Of a stretch of 64,000 nt of DNA, positions 1,938 through 39,855 are shown piece by piece. Where the stretch lies: positions 48,655 through 112,654 of the forward strand of contig NZ_SWJZ01000017.1 in assembly GCF_005144475.1 (NCBI RefSeq), in the 5' to 3' direction. The notes below the pieces were generated by a model that had not been told where the DNA came from, did not search any database, and worked only from the letters and a program-made list of their open reading frames with translations. This DNA is from Rhodobacter capsulatus (GTDB lineage Bacteria > Pseudomonadota > Alphaproteobacteria > Rhodobacterales > Rhodobacteraceae). Position 1 is the first letter of the stretch; the number at the start of each line of letters is the position of its first letter. The position numbers and the translations under genes are program-made.

Positions 1938-2004
1938 TTTATTTCCGGACGGGATGATTCCGTCAAGCCGACGTGCCGCAACGTCACTTCGGCGGGGCTC
2001 TCTC

Positions 2005-2016
2005 CGAAAGGATAGG
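2005..2016 (+). promoter_or_regulatory. Shared 12-base word, copy 1 (CGAAAGGATAGG)
   Basis: The word lies 112 bases ahead of the start of the 82-residue protein gene. The same word occurs at 3250-3261 and 6634-6645 on the opposite strand. Copies 1 and 3 agree over 13 bases (CGAAAGGATAGGT). Confidence 0.5.
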
Positions 2017-2116
2017 TCGCACGCTTTCGCGCGCCGCCGCTGGCCTTCCGCGCAGGCGCCAAGGGCGGCGGGCGTTGGTAAATATCTTGTCAAGGATAAC
2101 GACAGAGAGCCGCGCC

Positions 2117-2365
2117 ATGAGCCCGATCGCCACTGCCAGTCAGCACGCCTGGATCTATGCCGTGCTGATCGAGATGAACGCTTATTGCCGCAACGAGGGG
2201 CTGTCGGAGGTGTCCGCCGCCCTTGCCCGGGCGATCGAGCGGATGGAGCCGGTGGTGTTTCCGCAGGCCGCCGCGCCGCAACGGCCGCGCCGGGTCTCGC
2301 CCTTTTCTTCGCGCGACGAGCGCGTGCAACCGGCGCAGGTGCTGCCCTTCCCCGGCCGCCGTTGA
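2117..2365 (+). CDS. Small protein of unknown function, 82 residues
   Basis: I do not recognise a family. Residues 1-50 look helical and hydrophobic-patterned (WIYAVLIEMNAYCRNEGL, then SAALARAIERM). Residues 50-82 are basic and proline-rich with two PF..R segments, ending in LPFPGRR. There is no signal peptide or membrane segment. It starts after a weak purine stretch and is followed by a clear terminator hairpin, so it is probably monocistronic. A 12-base word shared with two other promoter regions of this cluster lies 112 bases upstream, suggesting common control with the two-component genes to its right. Confidence 0.7.
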   Translation: MSPIATASQHAWIYAVLIEMNAYCRNEGLSEVSAALARAIERMEPVVFPQAAAPQRPRRVSPFSSRDERVQPAQVLPFPGRR

Positions 2366-2437
2366 CAGGACAAGCCGGTCCGCGCCTGACCCATCGGCGG
2401 ACCGGCGCGCCGCCGACCCACTCGATCCGGCGGCGAA

Positions 2438-2460
2438 AGGCGGTGCTTCGGCACCGCCTT
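2438..2460 (+). terminator. Rho-independent terminator after the 82-residue protein gene
   Basis: The stem AGGCGGTGC / GCACCGCCT closes a TTCG tetraloop and is followed by TTTG. It lies between convergent genes, so it may also act on the response-regulator transcript from the other side. Confidence 0.75.
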
Positions 2461-2486
2461 TGCATTTGAAAGCAGGGGCTTGCCCC

Positions 2487-3101
2487 TTAGAACCAGCCGT
2501 TTTCGCGCGCGATCATCGCCGCATGGGTGCGGTTGCGCGCGCCGATCTTGCGCGTCAGCGTCCGCACATGCAGCTTCACCGTGACCTCCTGCAGGTCCAT
2601 CTCGCGGGCGATTTCCTTGTTCGTGCGCCCGGCGCAGAGGCCGCGCAACACCTCGGTTTCGCGCGCCGTCAGCCCGCCCTGCACCGGCGGCTCCTCCTGC
2701 TTGAGAAAGTCGAAGGGCGCAAAGACCGAGCCCGAGGCCATCAGGGTCACCGCCCCGATGATCGAGCGCGCGGGCATCGCCTTCGGCACGAAGCCGATCG
2801 CCCCGGCCTCCAGCGCCTCGCGCGCGGCGGCGGGACGGGCGACGCCCGAGATGATCGCCACCGCCTGCGCCGGAAAGGCCCGCTTCATCTGCGCAAGGCC
2901 CTCGAGCCCGTCCATGCCCGGCATGTCGTAATCGAGCAGCACCAGATCGTAGCCGCCCCCCGACTGCACCGCGGCCCGCAGCGCCGCCAGCGCCGCGGGC
3001 AGGGTTCCGGCCACGGCAACCTCGTCGCAGCCACCCGCGCGCAACAGCGCCGCAATAGCATCGCGCACGAGATCATGGTCGTCGGCAATCAGCAATCTCA
3101 C
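2487..3101 (-). CDS. LuxR/NarL-family response regulator
   Basis: The product has a receiver domain (residues about 1-115) with the acidic pair in IADDHD, phospho-acceptor Asp57 in LLDYDMPGMDG and the conserved Lys107 in FVPKA. A C-terminal LuxR helix-turn-helix follows (LTARETEVLRGLCAGRTNKE, then LQEVTVKLHVRTLTRKIGA). It should be a DNA-binding regulator activated by phosphorylation. Start choice: a GTG at 3107 is possible, but the GTG at 3101 has a perfect GGAGG five bases away, so I use that. It is divergent from the SUOX-fold/hybrid-kinase pair, the obvious partner for the kinase's His-Asp-His relay. This pairing is inferred from neighbourhood. Confidence 0.92.
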   Translation of the reverse strand: MRLLIADDHDLVRDAIAALLRAGGCDEVAVAGTLPAALAALRAAVQSGGGYDLVLLDYDMPGMDGLEGLAQMKRAFPAQAVAIISGVARPAAAREALEAGAIGFVPKAMPARSIIGAVTLMASGSVFAPFDFLKQEEPPVQGGLTARETEVLRGLCAGRTNKEIAREMDLQEVTVKLHVRTLTRKIGARNRTHAAMIARENGWF

Positions 3102-3249
3102 CTTCACCTCCGAAAATCTCGGCCCGAGCCTCTCCCGCAGGGGTTGCGGAAAGGTAATCTTAAAGAAAGCGGGCTATTTCAAGACCGCGACGGGAAGTTT
3201 CTGACGTGCTCGCCCTAAGCGTTGCAGAAGTCCCCTATCGAAGGGTAAT

Positions 3250-3267
3250 CCTATCCTTTCGGATAGG
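3250..3267. promoter_or_regulatory. Shared word copy 2 inside a palindrome, divergent promoter region
   Basis: CCTATCC-TTTC-GGATAGG is a perfect 7-bp inverted repeat with a 4-base centre. Its left 12 bases are the reverse complement of the word found at 2005, and the same top-strand word recurs at 6634. It sits in the gap between the divergent response-regulator and SUOX-fold genes, 100 bases ahead of the latter. Confidence 0.55.
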
Positions 3268-3349
3268 GAAACATACTAAATTCCGCATGGCTTGACCGGA
3301 GGGCTATGCGACAATCCCGCGATCGTGCAGGATCCAACGGGGGAAAGAC

Positions 3350-3916
3350 ATGCCTATCTTCACCAAGACGGCCAAGGCCGTGCTGATCCTGAGCCGCTTC
3401 CTGCTTGTCGCCGCGGGGCTTGCCCTTCCGGCGCAGGCCGCGCTGGCCGAGTCGGCGGCCCCGGCCGCCGCAGTCGCGCTGCCCGCACCCACAGGGCCCG
3501 TGATGCTGACCGTCACCGGCCGGATCGCGGGAACCGACGGCAGCGGGATGGCCAGATTCGACGCGGCGATGCTGGCCGCGCTGCCGCGGCGGGAGTTCGC
3601 CACCTCGACGATCTGGACCGAGGGCGTGCAACGCTTTTCCGGGGTCGATCTGCGCAGCCTGATCGATCATCTGGGGGTCACGGGCGGCACGCTGAAGATC
3701 ACCGCGGTCAACGATTATTCGGTGCAGATCCCGGTCTCGGAGGTGGTCGCGGGCGGCGCCCTGCTGGCCGACCTGCGCGACGGCAAGCCGATGAAAGTGC
3801 GCGACAAGGGCCCGCTCTGGCTTGTGTATCCCTATGACTCTGCGCCAGAATTCAGAAACGAAGTCGTCTATTCCCGGTCCGTCTGGCAGGTCGACCGGAT
3901 CGAGGTTCTGCCCTAA
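3350..3916 (+). CDS. Secreted SUOX-fold (oxidoreductase molybdopterin-binding-like) protein without cysteines
   Basis: The 188-residue product has a signal peptide (hydrophobic core around LILSRFLLVAAGLAL, likely cut after AQAALA near residue 31). The mature domain shows the short SUOX-like pattern VTGRI...FSGVDLRSLIDHLG...ITAVNDYSVQIPVSEV...LWLVYPYD. In true sulfite-oxidase/YedY enzymes a cysteine ligates molybdenum. No cysteine is present anywhere in this protein, so a molybdenum enzyme is unlikely. A GGGGGAAAG ribosome site precedes the ATG. It ends only a few bases before a transmembrane hybrid kinase, and I infer that it serves as a periplasmic ligand-binding partner of that kinase. Such short SUOX-like proteins are usually annotated only as molybdopterin-dependent oxidoreductases. 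Confidence 0.85.
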   Translation: MPIFTKTAKAVLILSRFLLVAAGLALPAQAALAESAAPAAAVALPAPTGPVMLTVTGRIAGTDGSGMARFDAAMLAALPRREFATSTIWTEGVQRFSGVDLRSLIDHLGVTGGTLKITAVNDYSVQIPVSEVVAGGALLADLRDGKPMKVRDKGPLWLVYPYDSAPEFRNEVVYSRSVWQVDRIEVLP

Positions 3917-3922
3917 CCCGGG

Positions 3923-6616
3923 GTGCCTGCCCCCTTTCGCATCGGTTTCATGTCGGACAGTTTCCCCTCGTTTCTCGACTCGCGGCGACGCCTGCGCCCG
4001 TTCCTGTTCGCAGGGCTCGTCGTGGTGTTCCTTGGCGCGGTGGGGGCGCTTTACCGCTACGGCGTGATGGTGCAGTCGGAAATCGACAACCTCGCCATCG
4101 CCAATTCCGACAGCCTGCAATGGACGCTGGCGCAGCTTGAGGTGGAATATTTCCACATGGACGGGGCGCTGCTGCGCGCCCGCCCCGACGCGCCCGAGAC
4201 GATGGCGGAATTCGGCCGCAGCTTCGATGTCTTCTACAGCCGCGTGCACACGATCCTGGAGGGGCGCGGCTTTGCGGCGATCGTCACCCCCGAGGTCGCC
4301 GGGCCCGAGATCGGCCGCATCGACGCCTTCCTGCACGAGACCGCAGAGCTGGTCGATGCCGGCCCCGAAACGTTGGCCCCCGCCCTGCCCGCGCTGCGCG
4401 AGCGCGCCGGGGCGCTTGAAAGCGATGTCCGCACGATCTCGCTCGAAGGCGTGCGCGAATTCGCCAGCCGGGCGATGGCGCAGCGCGAACGGGTGTTTTC
4501 CTCGCTGATGCTGCTCGCCTCGCTGACCACGGCGCTTTTGGCGGCGATCACCGCGGGGCTGGTGATCACCTGGTCGCTCTGGCGTTTCGGGATGCGGCAG
4601 ACCGGCTCGCTCTCGGCGGCGAAGGCCCGGCTCGAAGCGGTGATCGGCACCTCCTTCGACGCGGTGATCGTCGTCGATCACGAGGGCAAGGTCCTGGAAT
4701 TCAACGGCGCCGCCGAACGGGTCTTCGGCTACAGCCGCGCCGAGGCGCTGGGGCGGCATCTCAACGACCTGATCGTGCCCGAGGCGATGAAATCGGCGAA
4801 AGTGGCGGGGTTCAAGCGCTACCGCACCGGCGGCGTGCCGCGGATCGCGGGGCATGGGCTGATCGGCCTGCAGGCGCAGCGCAAGGACGGCTCGGTCTTC
4901 CCGGCCGAAATTTCGGTGACCGCCACCCGGATCGGCCGCAAGGAAATCTTCGTCGGCTACATGCGCGACATCACCGACCGCGTCGCCGCCGAAAAGGAAC
5001 TGATCGACGCGCGCGATGCGGCGATGGCGGGCGAACAGGCGCAGGCCGAATTCGTCGCGGTGATGAGCCACGAGATGCGAACCCCGCTGAACGGGCTGCT
5101 CGGCACGCTTGAACTCTTGCGCGAAACCCCGCTCGATGCCAGCCAGACCGCGCTGCTCGCCTCGATGCAGAAGGCGGGCGAAATCCTTTTGGCGCATGTG
5201 AATGACACGCTGGATGTCGAACGGCTCGATGCGGGCAAGCTGTCGCTGACGCGCGAGCCCTTTGCGCCGATGTCGGTGCTCGACGAGATCGTGCAGATGC
5301 AGGCGGGGGCGGCGGCGGCGCGCGGCAACCGGCTGTCGACGCGCACCGCGGGACGCCTGCCCGAGGCGGTCGAGGGCGATGCGATGCGGATCCGGCAGGT
5401 GCTGCTCAACCTCGTCGGCAATGCGATCAAGTTCACCCGTGACGGCACGATCACCCTTGAAGCGGACTATCACCGCGATCAGGGGCTGCTGGAATACCGG
5501 GTCATTGACACCGGCATCGGCATTCCCGCGGCCGAGACCGAGCGGATCTTCGACGATTTCGTCACCCTCGACCCCGAACTGTCGCGCGAGGCGACGGGAT
5601 CGGGGCTGGGCCTGTCGATCGCGCGGCGGCTGATGCGGGCGATGCGCGGCCAGATCGGGGTGGAAAGCGAGCTCGGACAGGGGTCGGCCTTCTGGATCAG
5701 CCTGCCCGCGCCGGTGGTGCTGAGCCTGCCCGCCGCGACGCCGCCGATGCCGGTCGTGAAGGCGCCCGCGCGCCCCGCCCCCGGTGCGGCCCCCTGTGCC
5801 GCCGACGGCAGCCCCGCGCCGCGTCTGTCGACGTCGATCGAGGTGCTGGTGGTCGAGGACAATGACATCAACCGCGTCGTGCTGTGCGAGATGTTGCGCC
5901 GGGCCGGACACAGCATCGCGGAGGCTCGCGACGGCGTCGAGGCGGTCGAAAAGGCGGCGGAGCGCCGCTATGACGTGATCCTGATCGATCTGAACATGCC
6001 GCGGATGAACGGCGTCGATGCGACCGAGGCGATCCGGGCCGGGACCGGGCCGAACCACGAGACGCCGATCATCGCGGTCACGGCGAATGTCCTGCCCGAG
6101 GCGCGCAACCGGCTGGAGGCGGCGGGGGTGTGCCGGGTGATCTCGAAGCCGATCACCCGCAAGATGCTGGATCAGGTGCTGGCCGAGGAGCTGTGCCCGC
6201 GGTTGCGTCAGCGCCCGCTGTCGACCCCGCCCGAGCCCGCCGCGGAGGCCGGGCTGGCGCTGGTTCAGGCCGAGACTCTGGACGAGCTGGCGCAGTCGCT
6301 GGGCCCCGAGATGATGGCGCAGACGCTGCGGCGCTTCCTGACCGAGGGCACGGAGATGATCGCCGCGCTGACGCGGGCGGCGGCGCAGGATCGCCCCGCC
6401 GAAACCGCGGCGCTGGCGCATAAATTCGCCGGTTCGGCGGCGCTTCTGGGGGCGGAACGGCTGCATCATCGGCTCAAGGCGATCGAGGTGGCGCTGCGGA
6501 TCGCCGCGCCGGGAACCGCCCCCGATGCGGCGACGCTGGCCGCCCTTGACGCGCTTGGCGCGCTTTGGACCGAGACCCGGACCCGGCTTGAAACGGCCGC
6601 CGCGTCCCAGGGCTGA
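3923..6616 (+). CDS. Hybrid sensor histidine kinase (TM-sensor-TM-PAS-HisKA-HATPase-REC-HPt)
   Basis: The order of domains in the 897 residues is: TM1 about 25-47; a helical periplasmic segment about 50-190; TM2 about 194-219; PAS about 235-352; HisKA with phospho-acceptor His383 in MSHEMRTPLNG; HATPase with N-box LNLVGNAIKF (Asn500), DTGIGIP and GSGLGLSIA; a proline/alanine linker 600-640; receiver with Asp689 in LIDLNMPRMNG; and HPt with His833 in LAHKFAGSAALLGAERL. This is a complete internal phosphorelay that can pass phosphate to a separate regulator. The GTG at 3923 and the ATG at 3950 (residue 10) are both possible and neither has a good ribosome site. It follows the SUOX-fold gene closely and is probably co-transcribed with it. 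Confidence 0.93.
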   Translation: MPAPFRIGFMSDSFPSFLDSRRRLRPFLFAGLVVVFLGAVGALYRYGVMVQSEIDNLAIANSDSLQWTLAQLEVEYFHMDGALLRARPDAPETMAEFGRSFDVFYSRVHTILEGRGFAAIVTPEVAGPEIGRIDAFLHETAELVDAGPETLAPALPALRERAGALESDVRTISLEGVREFASRAMAQRERVFSSLMLLASLTTALLAAITAGLVITWSLWRFGMRQTGSLSAAKARLEAVIGTSFDAVIVVDHEGKVLEFNGAAERVFGYSRAEALGRHLNDLIVPEAMKSAKVAGFKRYRTGGVPRIAGHGLIGLQAQRKDGSVFPAEISVTATRIGRKEIFVGYMRDITDRVAAEKELIDARDAAMAGEQAQAEFVAVMSHEMRTPLNGLLGTLELLRETPLDASQTALLASMQKAGEILLAHVNDTLDVERLDAGKLSLTREPFAPMSVLDEIVQMQAGAAAARGNRLSTRTAGRLPEAVEGDAMRIRQVLLNLVGNAIKFTRDGTITLEADYHRDQGLLEYRVIDTGIGIPAAETERIFDDFVTLDPELSREATGSGLGLSIARRLMRAMRGQIGVESELGQGSAFWISLPAPVVLSLPAATPPMPVVKAPARPAPGAAPCAADGSPAPRLSTSIEVLVVEDNDINRVVLCEMLRRAGHSIAEARDGVEAVEKAAERRYDVILIDLNMPRMNGVDATEAIRAGTGPNHETPIIAVTANVLPEARNRLEAAGVCRVISKPITRKMLDQVLAEELCPRLRQRPLSTPPEPAAEAGLALVQAETLDELAQSLGPEMMAQTLRRFLTEGTEMIAALTRAAAQDRPAETAALAHKFAGSAALLGAERLHHRLKAIEVALRIAAPGTAPDAATLAALDALGALWTETRTRLETAAASQG

Positions 6617-6633
6617 GCGCATGGCGCCACGGA

Positions 6634-6645
6634 CCTATCCTTTCG
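6634..6645 (-). promoter_or_regulatory. Shared 12-base word, copy 3
   Basis: CCTATCCTTTCG lies 97 bases ahead of the pseudo-receiver gene and is the reverse complement of the word at 2005. The three copies lie 112, 100 and 97 bases before their genes. Confidence 0.5.
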
Positions 6646-6693
6646 CGTGCGCTGTCATCCCTCCGACACATTGCCCGGATTCCCTAACGGCAA

Positions 6694-6714
6694 TTAACCT
6701 TGCACGCAGGTTAA
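6694..6714. promoter_or_regulatory. TTAACC...GGTTAA inverted repeat (CtrA-like half sites)
   Basis: TTAACC and GGTTAA are separated by nine bases and lie 17 bases before the next start codon. TTAACC-type half sites are recognised by CtrA in alphaproteobacteria, but CtrA sites are normally direct TTAA-N7-TTAA pairs, so this is only a candidate. Confidence 0.3.
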
Positions 6715-6730: not shown

Positions 6731-7480
6731 ATGGTCTGGACGCATTCATCCGCGCAACCCGTCGCGACGGCGGCGGTTATCGGGCCCTGGCTCGGCCGGA
6801 TCCTGATCCGGCTGCGCGCCGCGTTCAGCCCGGCACCGACCGCTTCGGGCTGGCCCGCCGTGGTGATCGCCGCCGCCGATCAGCCGCACGGGAGCGGCGG
6901 CGCGACGCCCGGCATCCGCCTTCAGCGTATCGGTCGCAGCGCCGCGCCGGCGCATGAGCTTGCCCCGCCCCGGCCCGAGTCGCCTTCGGCCCTCTCCCCG
7001 GGCGCCGCCCCGACGGGGTCCGCCACCGCGCCGGTCGCGGGCGCCGCCCGCTTTTACGGCCTCGACGCGGATTCGATCTCGGTCGTCTATGTCCTGTCGC
7101 ATCGCGGCGGCGCGGGGCTGACCTGCCTCGACTGGCTGGCCGATCACGGCCTGCCGTTCCGCCGCATCGGCGCGCTGCACCCGACCGCGCCGGTCTGGTC
7201 GGCACCGCAGGGCGCGTTGCTGCTCGTCGATCTCGACACGCTGGGCGGGATGTCGGAAATGGCCGAGCCGCTGATGCGGCTGCGGCTGGGCCGCCCCGAC
7301 ATCGCGGTGGTGCTGCTGAGCGAAGAGGTCGAGACGCATGATTTCGGCACCGAGCGGCTGGTGCTGGCCGATATCACGCTGCGCCTGCCCTGCGCTTTCG
7401 CCAGTTTCGAATTCGCGCTGGCCGAGGCGCCGATCAACAATGCCGCCTGGCAGGAGCGGCTTCTGGGTGATCAGCGCTGA
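6731..7480 (+). CDS. Unknown protein with a C-terminal pseudo-receiver-like domain
   Basis: The 249-residue product starts after GGGAGG. Residues 1-110 are alanine/proline/serine-rich and look disordered. Residues about 115-249 resemble a degenerate response-regulator fold: strand ISVVYVLSH, strand ALLLVDLD (the Asp pair where a phospho-acceptor could sit), strand IAVVLLSEE (in the place of the usual Thr/Ser strand), then LRLPCAFASFEFALAEA in place of the Lys strand. The Lys is missing, so canonical phosphotransfer is doubtful. It directly follows the hybrid kinase gene in the same direction with its own promoter region, and converges with the DegT gene with a 10-base overlap. A role in the same signalling pathway is inferred. 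Confidence 0.75.
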   Translation: MVWTHSSAQPVATAAVIGPWLGRILIRLRAAFSPAPTASGWPAVVIAAADQPHGSGGATPGIRLQRIGRSAAPAHELAPPRPESPSALSPGAAPTGSATAPVAGAARFYGLDADSISVVYVLSHRGGAGLTCLDWLADHGLPFRRIGALHPTAPVWSAPQGALLLVDLDTLGGMSEMAEPLMRLRLGRPDIAVVLLSEEVETHDFGTERLVLADITLRLPCAFASFEFALAEAPINNAAWQERLLGDQR

Positions 7481-38715: not shown

Positions 38716-39855
38716 TCAGCGCAGGACGGGTTCATCCCAGAGGTTCAGCTTGACGCCGATGCCGCGGTCCAGCGCGTTGCGGTAAAGCACCGTGCCCCAG
38801 GCGACGTCCTCGACCGGCATGCCGCCCACCGACATGATGATGATTTCCTGATCATTCTTGCGCCCCGGCGCGTCGCCCGCGACGATGGCGCCAAGGTCTT
38901 CCAGATCGTCATGGGTCAGCTTGCCCTCGGCCAGCATGTCCATGAACTTGACGCCGATGACGGGGATGGTGTTGTGCGCGGGCTTCGGCACCTCTTCATA
39001 CCAGGCCTCGTAAAGCCCCGTGTTATCAAGCACCTTGCGCACGTCGGGGGCCTGCATCCCCTCGTCGATGTTGCACACGGCGGGCATCGCCAAGAAGGCG
39101 CCGGGCTTCACCCAGTCGCGCTTCACCATCGGATAGGTCGCAGGGTCACCCGTCTCGCCCGAGTTGCAATAGCTGACCAGATCCGAGCCGCGCACGACCT
39201 CTTCGATGCTGTCGACCACCGTGACCGAGGTGATCTGCGGATAGGTCTCGGCCACCCAGGCAAGGAAGGTCTGCAGGCTTTTTTCACCGCGGCCTTTCAC
39301 CTTCAGCGTGTCGATGCCCGGGCAGGCGACCATGAAGGCGGCCAAAGTCGTCTTTGCCATCACGCCGGGCCCCAGGATGCCGACGATCTTCGCATCCGGC
39401 CGGGCAAGATGGCGCGCGCCCACGCCCGGCACCGCGCCGGTGCGATAGGCCGAAAGCAGGTTCGCCGACATATGCGCCAAGGGCGCCCCGGTCTCGGTGT
39501 CGTTCAGCGTGAACATCAGGATGGAGCGCGGCAGGCCCTTTTGCCGGTTCGCGATGTTCGAGCCATACCATTTGACGCCGGTGGTGCAGAAGCGCCCCCC
39601 CAGATAGGCGGGCATCGCCATGAAACGGCGGTCCGCGGTGGGTTTCGGCATCGTCGGGAACGGGCTTTCGGGCGGGAACATCACCATCGCGCCGTGGCTG
39701 TCGTTGTTCGCCCCGGCCATGCGGTAATCGCCCGAATGCAGCAGGCCGAACATCTCCTCCATGCAGTCGACGCAAGCGGCCATGTCGGTGACGCCCGCCC
39801 TGATCATGTCGGGTTCGGACAGGTAGATGAAATCGATACGCGTTTCGGCGTTCAT
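38716..39855 (-). CDS. Ornithine cyclodeaminase/mu-crystallin-family protein
   Basis: The 379-residue protein has the OCD pattern: FMAMPAYLGGRFCTTGVKWYG with the substrate Lys, SANLLSAYRTGAVPGVGA, the NAD-binding GILGPGVMA, and YCNSGETGDPATYP. It is longer than ornithine cyclodeaminase (about 340) and is of the type sometimes annotated as tyramine oxidase subunit B. True activity is unknown; relatives act as imine reductases or dehydrogenases of amino acids. Start at 39855 is the first sensible ATG after the permease stop. The operon context suggests a role in amino-compound breakdown. Confidence 0.87.
   Translation of the reverse strand: MNAETRIDFIYLSEPDMIRAGVTDMAACVDCMEEMFGLLHSGDYRMAGANNDSHGAMVMFPPESPFPTMPKPTADRRFMAMPAYLGGRFCTTGVKWYGSNIANRQKGLPRSILMFTLNDTETGAPLAHMSANLLSAYRTGAVPGVGARHLARPDAKIVGILGPGVMAKTTLAAFMVACPGIDTLKVKGRGEKSLQTFLAWVAETYPQITSVTVVDSIEEVVRGSDLVSYCNSGETGDPATYPMVKRDWVKPGAFLAMPAVCNIDEGMQAPDVRKVLDNTGLYEAWYEEVPKPAHNTIPVIGVKFMDMLAEGKLTHDDLEDLGAIVAGDAPGRKNDQEIIIMSVGGMPVEDVAWGTVLYRNALDRGIGVKLNLWDEPVLR

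Follow-up and report, generated by a model that had tools for sequence, protein, structure and literature searches.

Within a 64,000-nucleotide stretch of the Rhodobacter capsulatus genome (assembly GCF_005144475.1, contig NZ_SWJZ01000017.1; hereafter the window), a two-component signaling cluster carries one 12-base word, CGAAAGGATAGG, in three upstream regions. What does this word represent? The comparisons described here argue that each copy contains an arm of an 18-bp inverted repeat, CCTATCC-N4-GGATAGG, which is complete only at position 3250, and that this dyad is probably bound as an operator by the LuxR-type response regulator of the cluster (2487 to 3107), itself the predicted output of a pterin-sensing PruR-DTB phosphorelay. 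The dyad, the constant 4-bp spacer between its arms, its repeated presence in relatives ahead of genes for PruR-like proteins, the regulator and polysaccharide functions, the homology of the cluster's SUOX-fold protein to PruR and the domains of its kinase are features of the sequences themselves.

The 12-base word is one arm of an 18-bp dyad

Just as an earlier note on this DNA had stated, exact copies of CGAAAGGATAGG lie at 2005 to 2016 on the forward strand and, inverted, at 3250 to 3261 and 6634 to 6645; the window has no fourth. That note placed them 112, 100 and 97 bases ahead of the three genes, which begin at 2117, 3350 and 6731, and these distances hold if measured from the leftmost base of the word. 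In the whole genome (4,224,534 bases in 170 contigs), the word has four copies against none for the reversed word. The fourth copy, C123:41514, sits within a coding sequence, which we take to be mreD-like and flanked by mreC-like and PBP2-like genes, and the genome-wide count thus finds the word infrequent outside promoters. For three of four randomly placed copies to fall within a single 4.64-kb span, the chance is approximately 1.4e-5, a figure computed after the sites were seen. Loose matches carry little information: with up to three mismatches the window contains 55, compared with a shuffle mean of 39.5 and a largest shuffle of 52, and with up to one mismatch the genome contains 31, compared with 13 for the reversed control.

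The 12-mer was rejected as the functional unit because its spacer letters vary in relatives. The unit is the 18-bp inverted repeat CCTATCC-N4-GGATAGG, of which the 12-mer comprises a single arm and the spacer; dyads are scored here as matches over the 14 arm positions, ignoring the spacer letters. The copy at 3250 does lie in a perfect 7-bp palindrome, as previously described, with a 7-4-7 layout (CCTATCC-TTTC-GGATAGG, 3250 to 3267, 14/14). This dyad is located between the divergent regulator and pruR-like genes, with its center some 91 bp upstream of the ATG of the pruR-like gene and some 151 bp upstream of the GTG that starts the regulator gene. The copy at 2005 belongs to an imperfect dyad on the forward strand at 1999 to 2016 (TCTCTCC-GAAA-GGATAGG, 12/14), centered about 110 bp upstream of the ATG at 2117 of the gene for an 82-residue protein (P82), and orthologous sites are present in L102 to L104. 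The third copy forms part of a half-site on the reverse strand at 6634 to 6651, before a pseudo-receiver gene, in which the CCTATCC arm is intact and the other arm degenerate (10/14); CCTATCC or CTATCC is retained at this position in L102 to L104.

Genome-wide, one perfect dyad, one with a single mismatch and seven with two mismatches (including the 1999 site) were found. Two of these nine places are in the window. The seven outside it were inspected, and only C110:2862, before a praR-like gene, resembled a promoter site. The near-dyad at C64:16669 (13/14; also in genomes G121, G122 and G134) was rejected as a promoter site, as it is the 3' end of a coding sequence.

Spacing and position of the dyad in wider relatives

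Eighty named loci (1.38 Mb), the best 80 of at least 586 confirmed loci, were fetched by alignment of the SUOX-fold protein and were therefore selected by protein, not by the presence of the dyad. Perfect arms separated by four bases occur at 33 places in these loci, and spacers of 0 to 3 and 5 to 12 bases yield none. Relaxing the arms to at least 13/14 gives 88 places with a spacer of four versus at most 3 with any other spacer from 0 to 12, and at least 12/14 gives 130 versus at most 7. With the arms swapped (GGATAGG-N4-CCTATCC), the same loci contain 1 perfect match, 2 at 13/14 or better and 12 at 12/14 or better, and 60 permuted palindromic arms at the 13/14 threshold average 0.17 matches, with a largest value of 2.

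A dyad of at least 12/14 is found in 50 of 72 450-bp segments preceding pruR, compared with 54 of 1440 random segments of the same loci, some of which may overlap true sites. Fifty-one of the 72 full-length loci (14 kb or longer) have a dyad site, and 49 of these 51 also encode the regulator, scored as present when its match exceeded 130 bits; in some regulator-bearing loci, four or five places carry the dyad. An earlier set of 45 loci with a SUOX-fold homolog (L031 to L075), drawn from the 18 genomes of the genus together with the top scorers among 120 genomes of the family, has a dyad of at least 12/14 within 450 bp before the match in 27 cases. Across the 120 family genomes, there are 22 perfect dyads, distributed over 15 genomes, versus none for the reversed control, and for 17 of these dyads a SUOX-fold (pruR-like) gene is found no more than 5 kb away. 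In Afifella marina (L266), a 13/14 dyad precedes a PruR-like gene with no regulator match within 18.5 kb.

Matrix prediction and plasmid control

A symmetric matrix was constructed from 50 sites in loci not titled Rhodobacter and applied to the window. The highest score belongs to 3250 (28.0) and the second highest to 1999 (19.6); since the matrix derives from loci not so titled, both sites are predicted independently of the window. Third is position 39120 (8.3), which was rejected as a site because it lies inside long open reading frames (ORFs), and 6634 is fourth (5.9). Fourteen other loci, some with the coding C64 near-dyad, served as background and gave best scores of 16.7, 16.7, 16.2 and 11.3.

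Does the dyad follow PruR or the regulator? A small control was provided by eight annotated PruR-kinase systems from 629 plasmid records with a match. The seven systems that do not have a close relative of the regulator reach only 8-9/14 before pruR (7/7), and on four of these plasmids no such regulator is nearby (best match 46 bits or less). In contrast, a Pacificitalea plasmid with a regulator of the same subfamily beside pruR (238 bits, 61%; GerE domain) has a 12/14 dyad with a matrix score of 24.4. Because the seven plasmids score 8-9/14 and that of Pacificitalea 12/14, the dyad in these sequences tracks this regulator subfamily rather than PruR or LuxR-type regulators generally. On the latter plasmid (L291, pDY25-D of Pacificitalea manganoxidans), the regulator/PruR-like/kinase cluster is situated a few genes from a CsgG/HfaB-family gene.

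Conservation in close Rhodobacter relatives

The gene order isovaleryl-CoA-dehydrogenase-like/P82/regulator/SUOX-fold/kinase/pseudo-receiver/DegT-like is kept in G121 (R. capsulatus DSM 1710), G122, G134 (R. viridis), G132 (Rhodobacter sp. TJ_12), G120 (R. aestuarii) and G127 (R. maris). All three words are exact in G121. In G122, two are exact and an imperfect dyad, CTATCC-GAAA-GGATGG, stands at P82; G134 has three words with one mismatch each, the mismatch at the pruR site falling in the spacer and leaving both arms perfect. The word is thus kept in close relatives, a check that the earlier note had proposed. In what we here call the R. capsulatus group (the window genome, G121, G122 and G134), the dyad before pruR is 14/14 in all four genomes. 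The site before pruR has drifted in G132 (8/14), G120 (9/14) and G127 (12/14) (L064, L065 and L067).

Over the 18 genus genomes, 24 dyads with at most one mismatch were counted against 4 for the reversed control. Outside the cluster, G121 and G122 contain five exact words, all within long open frames: two in mreD (95.8% and 95.5% to L004), one in L119 and two in the similar pair L120/L121. Two 13/14 dyads (L149 and L150, in G124 and G125) stand beside a glycosyltransferase-like and an epimerase-like gene, and another, at about 1501-1518 of L154 (G131), precedes a phasin-like gene; these gene names were assigned by eye.

Conservation, the matrix ranks, co-occurrence with the regulator in 49/51 loci and the 7/7 plasmid controls all favor the suggestion of the earlier note that the word could be the binding site of the LuxR-type regulator, in an amended form in which the 18-bp dyad is the unit and the third copy a half-site.

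Putative target genes of the dyad

Genes in relatives were called by a simple ORF caller that misses or mis-starts some, and the target counts are accordingly approximate. The dyad precedes the SUOX-fold (pruR) gene in 47 of the 76 loci having that gene and the regulator gene in 37/68 loci. Similar polysaccharide genes adjoin the system in 28-30 of the 80 loci, and here the dyad stands before a chain-length-determinant-like gene (22/29), a Wza-like export gene (21/30) and a WecG/sugar-transferase fusion gene (16/29). It was found before neither the kinase gene (0/74) nor a 431-residue gene behind the chain-length gene (0/28), both of which sit behind other genes of their units. The earlier note had envisaged a local regulon; since dyads precede polysaccharide genes in relatives, the putative regulon there is wider than local.

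For the sugar transferase of the polysaccharide locus, no match at E 1e-60 was found in 17 of the 18 genus genomes, the window's own included. Because this gene was not found and because the operator precedes two genes whose named relatives are all from Rhodobacter, the regulatory output appears to have been rewired in the R. capsulatus group.

Proteins of the cluster and neighboring features

The regulator, encoded on the reverse strand, is of the NarL/FixJ type and consists of a receiver and a GerE DNA-binding domain (PF00072 and PF00196 above cutoffs). The order of the genes and their co-occurrence suggest that it is phosphorylated by the cluster kinase and that it is the protein that binds the dyad.

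The SUOX-fold protein (3350 to 3916, forward strand) is a PruR homolog and a predicted periplasmic pterin-binding protein. It matches two solved structures that were deposited as pterin binding proteins, 7rkb (E 8e-35) and 7kos (E 1e-32; profile match E 3e-51), and its N-terminus is signal-peptide-like by eye. Residues N121, Y123 and W179, which are invariant in 13/13 aligned sequences, fall opposite positions 83, 85 and 141 of the 7kos chain; a constant offset of 19, itself inferred, equates these with N102, Y104 and W160 of the Agrobacterium tumefaciens protein. According to the available text of PMC13259868, these are pterin-site residues of A. tumefaciens PruR, and 7KOS and 7KP2 are the PruR proteins of A. 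tumefaciens and V. cholerae, respectively.

The DTB-type hybrid sensor kinase gene (3950 to 6616, forward strand; alternative start GTG 3923) begins 33 bp behind the pruR-like gene and encodes PAS, HisKA, HATPase, receiver and Hpt domains. Its best NCBIfam match is TorS, with a score of 364 bits, which is below the TorS cutoff of 676. The periplasmic part contains a WX7E motif, WTLAQLEVE, at residue 58, and W-x7-E occurs in the first 130 residues of 68 of the 75 kinases examined, that of the window included.

P82 (2117 to 2365, forward strand) is a predicted helical hairpin (residues 3-27 and 30-47) with a low-confidence tail and has no Pfam or NCBIfam match. The product of the pseudo-receiver gene (6731 to 7480, forward strand) has a predicted C-terminal receiver fold and a low-confidence N-terminal half; its first-ranked Foldseek match is 4dad (E 3.6e-4). 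Searches returned 9 proteins for P82 and 23 for the pseudo-receiver, each including the query itself, and every one with a species name is from Rhodobacter. A second palindrome, TTAACCT-N7-AGGTTAA (6694 to 6714), ends 16 bp before the pseudo-receiver ATG. With a variable spacer, it is perfect in all 7 genus genomes in which the pseudo-receiver gene was found, and it occurs nowhere else in the 18 genus genomes at up to one mismatch. Its half-sites resemble the TTAA of CtrA, whose sites its spacing does not fit. In L105, L106 and L109, the pseudo-receiver promoters have ACTATAC in place of the CCTATCC/TCTATCC of the R. capsulatus group, with an unchanged recognition-helix stretch in the regulator.

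Comparison with known systems

The regulator shares its receiver and GerE domains with NarL/FixJ-type regulators such as NarL and VraR. RcsB and GacA are further regulators of this type, and inverted-repeat sites are usual in the class. To our knowledge, CCTATCC-N4-GGATAGG matches no described site.

PruR systems come in two layouts, PruR-DcpA, which involves cyclic di-GMP, and PruR-DTB, which involves a sensor kinase, and a WX7E motif has been reported (PMC13259868, as far as its available text goes). The cluster in the window resembles the PruR-DTB layout described there, in which a PruR homolog lies directly before a kinase with WX7E and TorS-like PAS/HisKA/HATPase/receiver domains. It differs in possessing a LuxR-type regulator and a candidate operator, whereas the available text of PMC13259868 mentions neither a response regulator for DTB systems nor a DNA site or regulon, and the terms 'response regulator', 'operator' and 'DNA-binding' are absent from it. 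With PruR-DcpA of A. tumefaciens (PMC13259868), the cluster has in common a PruR homolog and a membrane signaling protein with WX7E; however, DcpA works on cyclic di-GMP, whereas a phosphorelay to a DNA-binding regulator is predicted here. Among the papers listed in literature searches, judged by titles and abstract openings, none concerns the dyad operator or a DTB response regulator. The component parts are of known kinds; on the same basis, the combination of PruR-DTB, regulator, operator and regulon was not found.

Alternative explanations and points against the operator assignment

Could a different protein recognize the dyad? The best-surviving alternative, though an unlikely one, is that it is bound by some other protein with a GerE domain, for instance a LuxR regulator of the acyl-homoserine-lactone kind, and that the cluster regulator binds elsewhere. 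The element in relatives often reads ACCTAT-N8-ATAGGT (left-flank A in 31/50 sites), which is the 6-8-6 layout of the lux box, and in several genomes the sites before praR-like genes read ACCTGT-N8-ACAGGT. Set against this is the clustering of the dyad with this very regulator in 49/51 dyad-bearing full-length loci, some of which carry four or five sites.

It is rather improbable that the dyad is instead the operator of a PraR-like XRE repressor from a family of biofilm regulators, encoded in this genome at C110:2426-2785, that represses itself and surface-polysaccharide genes. PraR/CdxA regulators control surface attachment in alphaproteobacteria, and PraR of Rhizobium is a repressor of attachment genes that also binds the promoter of its own gene (PMC4149787, from the text available). 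Of 17 genus genomes (18 were found, one of which, L288, is too short), 15 have a dyad-like element with the same spacing 92-96 bp upstream of the start codon of the praR-like gene; in the genome of the window (L274), it reads CCTGTCT-TTTT-GGATAGG and lies 94 bp before the gene. Outside the genus, 12 family genomes without a detected PruR were inspected by eye, and at least 5 of them have the praR-type element. However, the praR element differs from the dyad in having mostly CCTGTC in one or both arms, and it is patchy across 28 family genomes outside the genus. Moreover, praR-like genes are near-universal (109/120 genomes), while CCTATCC dyads cluster at loci with this regulator. The PraR sites reported in the available portions of PMC5527310 and PMC4149787 are CAAC-N5-GTTG and TTGCAA; the dyad, CCTATCC-N4-GGATAGG, contains neither, and L273 to L276 have a separate TTGCAA downstream of the dyad before their praR-like genes. 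As the praR-promoter dyads occur also in genomes without a detected PruR, another protein may recognize the element; praR may also belong among the targets of the regulator, or be controlled by a sister LuxR-type protein.

Very improbable is the notion that the three words are a functionless product of chance or shared ancestry; it fits the 6634 copy, which is one-armed and scores within background, but four genomes retain the words in three upstream regions that are not homologous to one another, and two of the three sites take the top ranks under a matrix built from other loci. That the element acts in RNA as a leader hairpin, as an inverted repeat upstream of genes might, is scarcely credible, given that the arm letters and not pairing alone are conserved, that the spacer varies within a constant layout, and that the pseudo-receiver site keeps one arm and loses the other, which a hairpin would not tolerate.

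Returning to the LuxR-type regulator as the probable binder of the dyad, several observations weigh against it. Within the genus, the chief one is that the recognition-helix stretch is identical in Rhodobacter sp. TJ_12 (L105) and R. aestuarii (L106), yet the sites before pruR are only 8/14 and 9/14. Eighteen of the 67 full-length regulator-bearing loci have no dyad of at least 12/14 before pruR, and two of the five full-length loci without the regulator carry a dyad. On three of the seven control plasmids, a distant LuxR-type regulator adjoins pruR (65, 134 and 41 bits), and one of these matches exceeds the 130-bit cutoff. The promoters of praR-like genes carry related dyads, also in genomes without a detected PruR. 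Among the 130 sites of the 80 loci, 35 have an unlabeled ORF nearby, with or without a named gene as well, and 7 have no gene near them. The element at 6634 to 6651 is half a dyad only, and its matrix score of 5.9, although compatible with a site, lies inside a background that reached 16.7. Finally, at up to three mismatches the window's own genome contains 103 dyads versus 107 for the reversed control; there is no excess, and therefore no wider regulon is visible in this genome.

Proposed mechanism and significance

How might the system operate? PruR would bind a pterin in the periplasm and modulate the hybrid kinase, from whose histidine phosphate would pass to the kinase receiver, then to the Hpt domain and finally to the LuxR-type regulator. 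A dimer of the regulator would bind the perfect dyad at 3250, which separates the regulator gene from pruR, serving both divergent genes and thereby creating feedback. It would also bind the imperfect dyad at 1999, controlling P82, and the half-site at 6634, controlling the pseudo-receiver gene, where a second protein or cooperativity may be needed. In about 29 of the 80 relatives' loci, this operator would also place capsule or exopolysaccharide genes under the control of the system. Because the dyad centers lie 88-110 bp before the start codons, our guess is that the regulator activates, with repression as the alternative.

On balance, we lean slightly toward a broader reading, in which these elements represent the missing transcriptional output of PruR-DTB: a pterin-sensing phosphorelay that uses one conserved Rhodobacteraceae operator for its own genes and for a surface-polysaccharide locus. 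The R. capsulatus group would have lost that locus and rewired the output to P82 and the pseudo-receiver gene, and possibly to praR as well.

Pterins are a newly recognized class of bacterial signal, and in the available text of PMC13259868 the kinase-type PruR systems are presented with no regulator or target genes named. Because genomes of Rhodobacteraceae can be scanned for it, an 18-bp operator would yield a list of target promoters and would connect predicted pterin sensing with exopolysaccharide genes in many members of the family. R. capsulatus, which is widely used in the laboratory, would gain a three-promoter test bed.

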